A stretch of 64,000 nt of DNA from Bizionia sp. M204. Its GTDB lineage: Bacteria > Bacteroidota > Bacteroidia > Flavobacteriales > Flavobacteriaceae. The translations under genes and the position numbers were made by a program. Shown piece by piece: positions 9,299 to 14,170 of this stretch (within the stretch, counting starts at the first letter, position 1; each line of letters starts with the position of its first letter). The notes under the pieces are model-generated. The model saw only the letters and a list, made by a program, of their open reading frames with translations, was not told the DNA's origin and ran no database searches. Where the stretch lies: positions 981,001 to 1,045,000 of the forward strand of contig NZ_CP046242.1 in NCBI RefSeq assembly GCF_023205095.1. Reading direction: 5' to 3'.

Positions 9299-9323
9299 TA
9301 CATTTTTTCTATTTTTGCTTTCA

Positions 9324-10352
9324 ATGAATTTTACAGCAGAACAAATAGCAGGTATTTTAGAAGGTGAAATTGTTGGCGACTCTACTATTGAAGTTTCCAG
9401 GTTATCTAAAATTGAAGAAGGAGCGGCAGGCGCTTTAACCTTTCTTTCTAATCCTAAATACACACCTTATATATATACAACTAAAGCTTCTATTACAATT
9501 GTTAATAAAAGCTTTATTCCAGAGAAAGATATTCACACTACTTTAATAAAGGTAGATGATGCCTATAAAGCGTTTTCAAAATTATTGGAATATTATAACC
9601 AGGTTAAATTAAACAAATCTGGAATAGAACAGCCAACATTTATTTCTGATTCTGCTAAATTAGGCGAAAACATATATATAGGTGCATTTTCGTACATTGG
9701 AAATAATGTAGAAATAGGTAATCATGTTAAAATTTTTCCCAATAGTTATATTGGCGATAATGTGGTGATTAAGGATCATACGATTGTGTTTGCTGGTGTA
9801 AAAATTTATTCAGATTGTTTGGTTGGTTCCCACTGCGTTCTTAATTCAGGCGCTATTATTGGAGCTGATGGTTTTGGATTTACCCCAAATGAAAAAGGGG
9901 AGTACCATAAAGTACCGCAAATAGGGAATGTTATTTTGGAAGATTTTGTGGATGTTGGTGCAGCCACCACGATAGATCGTGCCACTTTAGGTTCTACAAT
10001 TATTAGAAAAGGTGTAAAGCTGGATAATCAAATTCAAATTGCGCACAATGTTGAAATTGGAAAAAATACTGTTATTGCTGCGCAAACGGGAATTGCTGGC
10101 TCAACCAAAATTGGTGAAAATTGTCAAATAGGAGGCCAAGTTGGTATTTCAGGACACCTTACCATAGGTAATAATGTTAAAATACAGGCACAATCTGGGA
10201 TTGGTAAAAACATTAAGGATAATGAGGTTTTACAAGGCTCGCCTTCATTTAATTATAGCGATTGGAATAAATCCTATGTGCATTTTAAAAATTTACCAAA
10301 ATTATTTAAATCAGTAAACGAGATAGAAAAAAAATTAGATGGGAATAATTAA
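9324..10352 (+). CDS. lpxD: UDP-3-O-acylglucosamine N-acyltransferase LpxD
   Basis: LpxD adds the second 3-hydroxyacyl chain to UDP-3-O-acylglucosamine, the third step of lipid A synthesis. The 342-residue protein has the N-terminal uridine-binding domain ([10 protein letters not shown]...[11 protein letters not shown]), then a left-handed beta-helix of hexapeptide repeats. It retains GADGFGF, QIAHN with the catalytic His, and GISGHLTIG with the second conserved His. The start is set at the ATG at 9324, just after a TATTTTTG sequence. Its 3' end overlaps the lpxC start by 14 bases, so the two are translationally linked. Confidence 0.95.
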
Positions 10353-11253
10353 TACGGATATCAAACAGAAAACCATAGCTAGTGATGTTTCGCTTAAAGG
10401 CGTTGGTTTACACACAGGTAATAATGTAACCTTAACGTTTAAACCTGCTCCTGAAAATTTTGGATTTGCGTTTAAACGCATTGATTTGGAAGGTAGCCCA
10501 ATTATAGAAGCTGATGCTGTTTACGTAACTAATACGCAACGTGGCACATGTCTTGAAAAAAATGGCGTTACAATTCAAACCTGCGAGCATGTTTTGGCAG
10601 CGCTTGTTGGTATGGGCATTGATAATGCTATTTTGGAGCTTGATGCAGCCGAACCACCGATTATGGATGGTTCATCTAAATTTTTTGTTGAAGCTATTGA
10701 AAAGGCTGGCATTGTAGAACAAGAAGCCTTCAGGGAAGCTTACGAGGTTACTGATGTCATTTCTTATACAGACGAAGAAACCGGAAGTGAAATTCTAGTG
10801 ATGCCTGCCAAAGAGTACCAAGTGACTACTATGGTGGATTTTGGCACTAAAGTTTTAGGAACACAGAATGCGTCCATTAAAAATATGGCTGAATTTAAAG
10901 CTGAAATATCAGATTCTAGAACCTTCAGCTTTCTTCATGAAATTGAAACACTTTTAGAACACGGACTTATTAAGGGTGGCGATTTAAATAATGCCATTGT
11001 TTACGTAGATAAAGAATTGTCTCCAGAAACCATGGAGAAACTAAAAGTAGCTTTCAATAAAGACTCCATTTCTGTAAAACCTAATGGAATCTTGGATAAT
11101 TTAACATTGCATCATCCAAATGAAGCGGCACGACATAAATTATTAGATGTTATTGGCGATTTAGCCTTAATAAAAACACATATTAAAGGTAAGGTTATTG
11201 CTAATAAGCCAGGTCATTTTGTAAACACACAATTTGCTAAAAAAAATGTGTAA
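10339..11253 (+). CDS. lpxC: LpxC deacetylase, split from its usual FabZ fusion partner
   Basis: LpxC is the zinc deacetylase of UDP-3-O-acyl-GlcNAc, the committed step of lipid A synthesis. The ORF (304 residues) has [16 protein letters not shown] with one zinc His, MDGSS and the [14 protein letters not shown] block with the other zinc ligands. In most Bacteroidota LpxC is fused in frame to FabZ. Here the frame ends (FAKKNV, stop) just after a run of eight A at 11239-11246. Skipping one A continues smoothly as [16 protein letters not shown] into FabZ, giving about 468 residues, the normal fusion length. So this is a frameshifted fusion, a true split, or a sequencing error in the homopolymer. 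Confidence 0.93.
11239..11246 (+). other. A8 homopolymer at the lpxC/fabZ frame break
   Basis: Eight consecutive A (GCT then AAAAAAAA then TGTG) lie exactly where the LpxC frame must shift by +1, or lose one A, to continue into FabZ. The ATG made by the last A (11246-11248) overlaps the lpxC stop (11251-11253), so reinitiation is also possible. Runs of this kind are known sites of RNA polymerase slippage and of sequencing indels. Confidence 0.8.
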
Positions 11254-11746
11254 GATTATTAAAAATGAGCGTCGTAATAATGTGCCGAATATTGATTTGA
11301 ATAAAGAGCCGTTAATGGACGTAAATCAAATAATGAATATGTTGCCACATAGACAACCGTTTTTGTTAATTGATAAGATATTCGAATTAACAGATTCTGG
11401 CGTTATTGGTATGAAAAACGTAACCATGAATGAGCCCTTTTTTGCAGGACATTTCCCAGGCGCACCAGTTATGCCGGGTGTTCTAATTGTTGAAGCTATG
11501 GCACAAACAGGTGGTATTTTAGTATTAAGTACCGTTCCGGATCCAGAAAATTATTTGACATTCTTTATGAAAATAGATAATGTAAAATTCAAACAAAAAG
11601 TCGTACCAGGAGATACATTAATATTTAAATGCGATTTAATTTCACCTATACGTCGTGGTATTTGTCACATGCAAGGTTATGCTTATGCTAATGGAAAACT
11701 ATGTGCGGAAGCCGAATTAATGGCGCAAATTTCAAAAGTTAAATAA
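11246..11746 (+). CDS. fabZ: 3-hydroxyacyl-ACP dehydratase FabZ (fusion half)
   Basis: FabZ dehydrates 3-hydroxyacyl-ACP in fatty acid elongation and competes with lipid A synthesis for the same substrate. The hotdog-fold signature MLPHRQPFLLID, the catalytic region HFPGAPVMPGVLIVEAMAQ and SPIRRGICHMQGYAY are intact. Upstream of the family-typical start (MDVNQIMNML at 11315) sits a basic stretch ([11 protein letters not shown]) matching the linker of LpxC-FabZ fusions, evidence that the fusion was ancestral. I give the ATG at 11246 as the start if it is translated separately, which overlaps lpxC by 8 bases. Confidence 0.92.
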   Translation: MCKIIKNERRNNVPNIDLNKEPLMDVNQIMNMLPHRQPFLLIDKIFELTDSGVIGMKNVTMNEPFFAGHFPGAPVMPGVLIVEAMAQTGGILVLSTVPDPENYLTFFMKIDNVKFKQKVVPGDTLIFKCDLISPIRRGICHMQGYAYANGKLCAEAELMAQISKVK

Positions 11747-11816: not shown

Positions 11817-12602
11817 ATGAATCAACCACTAGCATACGTACATCCAGGAGCTAAAATAGCTAAAAATGTCGTAATTGATCCCTTTACAACTATTCATAAT
11901 AATGTTATTATTGGAGAGGGAACTTGGATAGGAAGTAACGTAACCATTATGGAAGGCGCTCGTATTGGTAAAAATTGTAATATTTTTCCGGGAGCTGTAA
12001 TTTCAGCAACACCTCAAGATTTAAAATATAAAGATGAAGATACCACAGTTGAAATTGGTGATAACGTGACCATTAGGGAATGTGTTACTATTAACCGTGG
12101 AACAACAGATAGAATGAAAACCGTTATTGGTGATAATTGTTTAATTATGGCCTATTGCCACATAGCGCATGACTGCATTGTTGGTAAAAACTGTATCTTT
12201 TCTAATAATAGTACACTTGCAGGTCATATTAATGTTGGCGATTATGTGGTTCTAGCAGGTATGACAGCTGTTCATCAATTCTGCTCAATTGGAAACCATG
12301 CATTTGTAACAGGTGGTTCTTTAGTAAGAAAAGATGTACCACCATTTGTTAAAGCAGCTCGTGAACCTTTATCCTACGTTGGAATTAATTCAGTAGGTTT
12401 AAGACGTCGTGGTTTTACAACTGAAAAAATTACCGAAATACAGGACATTTATAGAATTCTATATCAAAAAAATTATAATAATACACAAGCAGCTGAAATC
12501 ATTGAAGCTGAAATGGAAGCAACCCATGAGCGTGATGAAATTTTGCAATTTATAAAAGATTCGCAACGTGGTATTATGAAGGGTTACTTCAAATCTAATT
12601 AA
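11817..12602 (+). CDS. lpxA: UDP-GlcNAc O-acyltransferase LpxA
   Basis: LpxA transfers a 3-hydroxyacyl chain from ACP to UDP-GlcNAc, the first lipid A step. The 261-residue length is normal. The left-handed beta-helix hexapeptides run through the first two thirds, with ATPQDLKYKDE, TINRGT, the catalytic His in CHIAHDC, GMTAVHQFC and the GLRRRGF helix of the C-terminal domain. It follows fabZ after 70 bases with no terminator visible, so it belongs to the same lpx operon, and efp follows after 15 bases. Confidence 0.95.
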   Translation: MNQPLAYVHPGAKIAKNVVIDPFTTIHNNVIIGEGTWIGSNVTIMEGARIGKNCNIFPGAVISATPQDLKYKDEDTTVEIGDNVTIRECVTINRGTTDRMKTVIGDNCLIMAYCHIAHDCIVGKNCIFSNNSTLAGHINVGDYVVLAGMTAVHQFCSIGNHAFVTGGSLVRKDVPPFVKAAREPLSYVGINSVGLRRRGFTTEKITEIQDIYRILYQKNYNNTQAAEIIEAEMEATHERDEILQFIKDSQRGIMKGYFKSN

Positions 12603-13234: not shown

Positions 13235-14170
13235 ATGAAGTTTCCAAAACCACATACTTTAGAAGAAATTGCCTCGTTAATTGATGTTAACTATATTGGT
13301 GACCCTAGTTTTCCTGTGCTTGGTATGAATGAAATTCATGTCGTAGAACCTGGAGATATTGTTTTTGTAGATCATCCAAAGTACTACAATAAAGCACTAG
13401 ATTCTGCTGCTACCATTGTTCTAATTAATAAAGAGGTTACTTGTCCAGAAGGGAAAGCCCTTTTAATTAGTGATGATCCGTTTCGCGATTTCAACAAGCT
13501 CACCAAACATTTTAAACCGTTTCAACCGGCAACATCTGCTATAACAGATTCGGCTAAAATTGGAAAAAATACTATCATTCAACCTAACTGCTTTATTGGT
13601 AATAATGTTATTATAGGCGACAATTGTGTTATACATTCCAACGTTACTATTTATGATGATACCATTATTGGAAATAATGTAACTATTCATGCAGGAACTA
13701 TATTAGGAGCTAGTGCGTTTTATTATAAAAAGCGTCCAGAAGGATTTGATCCTTTAATCTCTGGCGGCCGTGTGGTTATAAAGGATTATGTAGACATAGG
13801 TGCACTTTGTACGATTGATAAAGGGGTAACGGGTGATACCACGATTGGAGAAGGTTCTAAATTGGATAATCAAATTCAAATAGGTCATGATACCATGGTT
13901 GGAAAGAAATGCTTAATTGCGTCACAAACGGGAATTGCAGGATGTGTAATAATTGAAGATGAAGTAACTATTTGGGGACAAGTAGGCTGTGCAAGTGGTA
14001 TTACTATTGGAGAAAAAGCAGTTATTCATGCTCAATCAGGAATTAGTAAATCCTTGCCAGGACATAAAACGTATTGGGGAACACCAGCTCAAGAAGCACG
14101 AGCAGTCATGAAGGAAATGGCTAATATTAAGCAATTACCCAAAATAATTGAGCAATTAAAACATAAATAA
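13235..14170 (+). CDS. LpxD-like acyltransferase paralog
   Basis: This 311-residue protein has the LpxD layout: an N-terminal domain (HTLEEIASLI...GDIVFVDHPKYY) followed by a hexapeptide-repeat beta-helix. It differs from the canonical LpxD at 9324-10352 at key places: GADGFGF is replaced by GASAFYY, QIAHN by QIGHD (catalytic His kept), and the second conserved His in GISGHLTIG is replaced (GCASGITIG). It may acylate a different sugar nucleotide or use a different acyl donor, or it may be non-catalytic. It follows efp by 50 bases and abuts the NTF2-like gene with no gap. Confidence 0.85.
   Translation: MKFPKPHTLEEIASLIDVNYIGDPSFPVLGMNEIHVVEPGDIVFVDHPKYYNKALDSAATIVLINKEVTCPEGKALLISDDPFRDFNKLTKHFKPFQPATSAITDSAKIGKNTIIQPNCFIGNNVIIGDNCVIHSNVTIYDDTIIGNNVTIHAGTILGASAFYYKKRPEGFDPLISGGRVVIKDYVDIGALCTIDKGVTGDTTIGEGSKLDNQIQIGHDTMVGKKCLIASQTGIAGCVIIEDEVTIWGQVGCASGITIGEKAVIHAQSGISKSLPGHKTYWGTPAQEARAVMKEMANIKQLPKIIEQLKHK

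Follow-up and report, generated by a model that had tools for sequence, protein, structure and literature searches.

Lipid A and fatty acid synthesis share a branch point: LpxC commits material to the former pathway, and FabZ acts on hydroxyacyl-ACP in the latter. The two activities are combined in the bifunctional LpxC/FabZ protein described by the NCBIfam model PRK13188 (NF009667). In several chlamydiae and cyanobacteria, according to the partial text of PMC516016, lpxC and fabZ are separate genes that lie adjacent in operons; that partial text contains no description of a split LpxC–FabZ fusion. A further system for comparison is provided by genes of Blochmannia and Buchnera that are frameshifted at poly(A) tracts and, in extracts of PMC3017870, are thought to be rescued by slippage.

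Here, we describe an lpxC–fabZ locus of Bizionia sp. M204 that shares features with each of these systems. The window, a 64,000-nt stretch of a one-contig genome of 3.36 Mb, carries the two domains in the gene order of the bifunctional protein and with nearly the same inter-domain sequence, and its two halves jointly span nearly the whole PRK13188 profile (positions 3–297 and 294–462 of 464). Unlike the bifunctional protein, which PRK13188 defines by a single frame over both domains, the window has two frames, and each half alone falls below the curated cut-off of 465 bits (442.6 and 287.7 bits). As in the chlamydial and cyanobacterial pairs (PMC516016, partial text), two enzymes are encoded by neighbouring genes, but the pair in the window traces back to a fusion, from which a single base separates it, and its FabZ N terminus is the old linker: as an earlier note on this DNA had claimed, the former inter-domain stretch is retained on the fabZ side, near-identical to that of relatives. 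As in Blochmannia and Buchnera, an important gene is broken at an A-run and is undecayed; those genes need frame repair (extracts of PMC3017870), whereas the halves in the window may function unrepaired, and the run is merely 8 bases long.

Two reading frames meet at a run of eight adenines

ORF analysis confirms that the lpxC and fabZ frames are one base apart and meet at an A8 run, with the coordinates that the earlier note had given (Table 1). The 3′ end of lpxC reads GCT AAA AAA AAT GTG TAA, with A8 preceded by GCT, and its last two residues (N-V) and stop are products of the frameshift. The fabZ frame extends from TTG 11234 to 11746, with ATG 11246 inside it, and is 166–170 aa long depending on the start. 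When the gene is aligned to that of the closest relative, the congener G001, the sole indel is one extra base at the junction, and the aligners used place this gap at the T before A8. The extra base may have originated in either of two ways: an A gained by an ancestor with GCT followed by A7, or a T gained before an A8 like that of G001.

Table 1. Features of the lpxC–fabZ locus (positions in the window)
Feature	Position	Strand	Basis or remark
lpxD, upstream neighbour	9315..10352	+	TIGR01853, 346.6 bits (cut-off 242.5)
lpxC, UDP-3-O-acyl-GlcNAc deacetylase half	10339..11253	+	304 aa; TIGR00325 and PF03331 matches
A8 run, meeting point of the frames	11239..11246	+	One base more than in fused relatives
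Candidate fabZ start (ATG 11246) overlapping lpxC stop (TAA 11251–11253)	11246..11253	+	Sequence
Former inter-domain stretch, present FabZ N terminus	11246..11341	+	Codon comparison with G001
fabZ, 3-hydroxyacyl-ACP dehydratase half	11246..11746	+	166 aa from ATG 11246; NF000582 and PF07977
lpxA, downstream neighbour	11817..12602	+	TIGR01852, 329.8 bits (cut-off 231.05)

The fusion is kept in relatives

All five congeners have a single open frame of 465–469 aa across the junction. A scan of the family gave matches in 389 of 397 genomes; among the matches listed (150 of the 389), all 149 other genomes are fused, at 468 aa or longer. A scan of the phylum matched 112 of 148 genomes, leaving 36 without a match, and 110 of the 111 other matched genomes reach at least 463 aa; the exception (330 aa) sits at a contig edge, its match beginning at base 2.

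Among 80 named loci, 79 are fused. The sole broken one, in the complete genome of Lacinutrix neustonica (L024; NZ_CP113088.1, 3637–7403), is interrupted in the same linker. We rejected it as a second natural split because two genes upstream are also frame-broken: the counterpart of a 407-aa gene of L026 is in two frames, and lpxD runs into lpxC. By its reading frames, this looks like an error-rich assembly. Separately, the lpxC part of lpxC–fabZ in the congener G005 (L014/L015, G005:C99) contains a run of N. The genome of the window encodes a relative of protein BA42 of Bizionia argentinensis that resembles the solved protein without being identical to it, so the strain probably belongs to another species.

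The junctions were tabulated in 86 rows comprising the window, the five congeners and the 80 loci, with one genome (G004/L018) counted twice. A8 is present in 24 of these rows including the window, and in the 23 among the other 85 it is in frame. The earlier note had placed the break at A8 and had suggested comparing A7 and A8 in close relatives; that comparison finds A8 in frame in G001, in the form GCA AAA AAA ATG, and in 22 of the 79 further fused relatives (L024 excluded), which carry GCAAAAAAAATG, that is, A8 in frame. We therefore rejected the reading that A8 itself is unusual; what sets the window apart is one base more. An invariant lysine pair is coded AAA-AAA in 48 of the 79 fused relatives. 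AAA accounts for 81.6% of lysine codons in the genome of the window, from which 0.816 squared, or around 67%, would be expected to be AAA-AAA, assuming that the relatives share this codon usage. Across the 79 relatives, the run is therefore not conserved and there is no sign of selection keeping it slippery.

Effect of the break on the two proteins

Each half is recognized by models of its own family. The lpxC half scores 222.5 bits against TIGR00325 (LpxC; curated cut-off 187.25), and the fabZ half scores 175.3 bits against NF000582 (FabZ; cut-off 113) and 171.4 bits against TIGR01750 (FabZ; cut-off 155.15). PF03331 covers residues 10–302 of the lpxC half (profile 1–265 of 268) and PF07977 covers residues 33–156 of the fabZ half; in the fused congener protein, these domains occupy residues 10–304 and 335–458. 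The break falls at 302/303 in fused-protein numbering, two residues short of the end of PF03331. Both enzyme domains look nearly complete from these matches, and the catalytic motifs of LpxC and FabZ presumably lie outside the lost part.

For the fused protein of the congener Bizionia myxarmorum, a structure model with 26 sequences (mean pLDDT 72, pTM 0.70) predicts a helix at residues 293–313, with blocks 291–310 at a pLDDT of 89; the FabZ part is poorly modelled in large part, with 363–415 below 50. Because the break at 302/303 is inside this predicted helix, LpxC would keep only the inner half of its last helix, the outer half remaining on FabZ. Just past the break, the stretch KNERRNNVP (residues 308–316) is 94–100% conserved in the 79 relatives.

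The upstream context of ATG 11246 ranks at the 33rd percentile among 544 mechanical ATG ORF starts, and around 10% of 5041 internal ATGs score equal to or above it. Bacteroidota initiate without Shine–Dalgarno sequences and favour A at −3, as stated in sections of PMC6847099, and ATG 11246 has A at this position. As a start for fabZ, the context appears workable.

Compared with G001, the first 27 codons past the break carry 6 synonymous changes and 2 nonsynonymous ones, with one residue altered, against 51 synonymous and 7 nonsynonymous changes in 300 codons of lpxC and 26 synonymous and no nonsynonymous changes in the remaining 139 codons of fabZ. This comparison finds no decay after the break, so the split, if real, is recent.

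A second split gene in the same genome

The genome of the window (G000) contains a second gene divided by one base. In its metX–thrA, which lies outside the window (G000:C1:37021-40417; L250, L253), a change from A6 to A7 yields ORFs of 318 and 806 aa. The congeners G001, G002 and G004 encode, in frames of 1132–1133 aa, a homoserine acetyltransferase-like domain joined to aspartate kinase/homoserine dehydrogenase; the congeners G003 and G005 gave no metX–thrA match. The break is near residue 311, with the MetX-like part at 10–317 (TIGR01392) and aspartate kinase from 327. The kinase part scores above its cut-off, whereas the MetX models score well under their curated cut-offs, so the acetyltransferase is named by similarity only. 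The linker is almost identical to that of G001, again with no decay after the break.

A family scan for metX–thrA matched 126 of 149 genomes. The 125 matched genomes other than G000 divide into 79 with the long form (at least 1128 aa) and 46 with a short frame of 315–408 aa. Four other short metX frames, in genomes of at least 64% identity (G064, G082, G101 and G051), were considered as fissions of the kind seen in G000, and this reading was rejected for the set. Adjacent metX and thrA matches that overlap in two frames are present in G082 alone; in G064 and G101 only the homoserine dehydrogenase part adjoins metX, and in G051 the thrA-like match is on a different contig.

Frame breaks and homopolymer runs in the genome

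Around 1.0 Mb of the 3.36 Mb of G000 was aligned to 1.8 Mb of G001, and DNA identity is approximately 87–95% in the larger aligned segments. Shared ORFs tested are frame-broken in 7 of 544 cases (571 kb) in G000 and in 4 of 547 in G001; on manual inspection of the alignments, two or more of the G001 breaks are close to an ORF start or belong to a doubtful short ORF. Besides those in lpxC–fabZ and metX–thrA, the seven breaks of G000 comprise a 10-base deletion, T runs altered from T4 to T5 and from T3 to T2, a site at a G-run and a T next to A7. By Pfam, none of the last five genes is a recognized core enzyme: the gene with the 10-base deletion matches DUF2807, that with the G-run site matches PF13557, an outer-membrane-type family, that with the T beside A7 is MotA/ExbB-like just below the cut-off, and the other two have no Pfam match. 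The PF13557 case (G000:C1:898290-899208) is the counterpart of a 306-aa gene of the relative, broken at a seven-G run that is the only G7 counted in 482 shared ORFs.

The same 482 ORFs contain 74 A/T runs of at least 8 bases, and a break was found only at the A8 of lpxC–fabZ. In runs of at least 7 bases, one-base gaps lengthen the G000 run relative to G001 in 9 non-coding and 3 coding cases and shorten it in 12 non-coding and 2 coding cases; in this count the lpxC gap, placed at the T, belongs to the short-run class and is outside these longer runs. No general homopolymer length bias emerges from the roughly 1.0 Mb compared, a test that a single error could escape, and G000 does not look indel-ridden.

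Weighing the explanations

The reading that we favour, at close to an even chance, is a recent real fission at the domain edge, in which one base inserted within or immediately ahead of the A-run divided an ancestral LpxC–FabZ fusion gene. The mutation would be tolerated because it is situated where, we infer, it does little harm. LpxC would terminate in the middle of its C-terminal helix, FabZ would be translated from ATG 11246 by coupling to the overlapping lpxC stop or reinitiation there, and slippage on A8 may still yield a small share of fused protein. The position of the break, at the end of PF03331 and ahead of PF07977 in the congener protein, is in keeping with this, as is the workable start context of fabZ, and the small number of frame breaks and the second case in metX–thrA favour a real, tolerated mutation: two of the seven breaks are at fused-gene boundaries, for which random errors should have no preference, and the other five are outside recognized core enzymes. 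Two single-base breaks near domain boundaries exceed what random errors would readily give, and by our rough guess, which is no measurement, they weigh for real mutation at odds of about 5 to 10; lysine-rich linkers may hold more A-runs, so errors might cluster there too. The cut inside a predicted helix, followed by the conserved KNERRNNVP, speaks against fission, and tolerated fission must be rare, given that almost all other genomes examined keep an unbroken fusion. The alternative that the gene is an ordinary fusion, with a base added at the A-run by an uncorrected sequencing or assembly error in a one-contig assembly, is a serious one to which we give somewhat less than an even chance. 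A-runs are classic sites of single-base indel errors, the fusion is kept in all 149 other family genomes listed and in 110 of the 111 others matched in the phylum, neither side of the break is decayed, the metX–thrA linker is as close to that of G001 as an error would leave it, frame breaks are slightly commoner in G000 than in G001, and L. neustonica offers an error-type precedent in the same linker; against an error stand the lack of run-length bias in the stretch compared and the single break among the 74 A/T runs. The earlier note had named a sequencing indel and a recent split as possibilities; both keep weight, and the data shift modestly towards the split.

Three further explanations would make the A-run functional. 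It is improbable that A-runs at the boundaries of fused metabolic genes serve this lineage as reversible splitting points, where an A gained or lost would toggle LpxC–FabZ and MetX–ThrA between fused and separate and leaky slippage would yield a mixture, so that fusion state could vary among members of a population. Even less probable is programmed transcriptional slippage at A8, by which fused and separate proteins would be made together and lipid A linked to fatty acid flux, as the earlier note had proposed for RNA polymerase. Slippage on A-runs exists, in frameshifted genes of Blochmannia (extracts of PMC3017870) and in an E. coli test gene whose indels within an 8A repeat are bypassed at basal expression (portions of PMC3812077), and on the latter ground low-level leaky fusion may plausibly accompany a real split. 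As an evolved device, however, it is unsupported: the A-run is unconserved, the A8 of relatives is in frame, and restoring the frame in the transcript takes one base fewer or two more, whereas in transcription of E. coli and Buchnera insertions prevail in A/T runs and deletions are seldom tied to runs (parts of PMC5574713). The run is also short, tracts of 9 or more being those termed long in the extracts of PMC3017870. Nothing in these data marks the lpxC–fabZ break as regulatory. Ribosomal frameshifting at A8 that connects both frames deserves the least credence of all; AAA-AAA is a slippery string, but ribosomal shifts on A-runs are mostly −1 and A8 here requires +1.

If recent fission is real, the strain is a natural test of the need for an LpxC–FabZ fusion that nearly all relatives examined have kept, and separate enzymes in it would show that the covalent link is non-essential. 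If the extra base is an error, it is a warning that single-base errors at A-rich linkers can mimic gene fission.

Gene neighbourhood

Searches of the window for tRNAs and for Rfam families (gathering threshold) gave no matches. The neighbourhood of lpxC and fabZ comprises lpxD, lpxA, efp and a second lpxD-like gene. Of the two lpxD-like genes in the cluster (9315–10352 and 13235–14170), the second barely passes the lpxD cut-off, at 251.9 against 242.5 bits.
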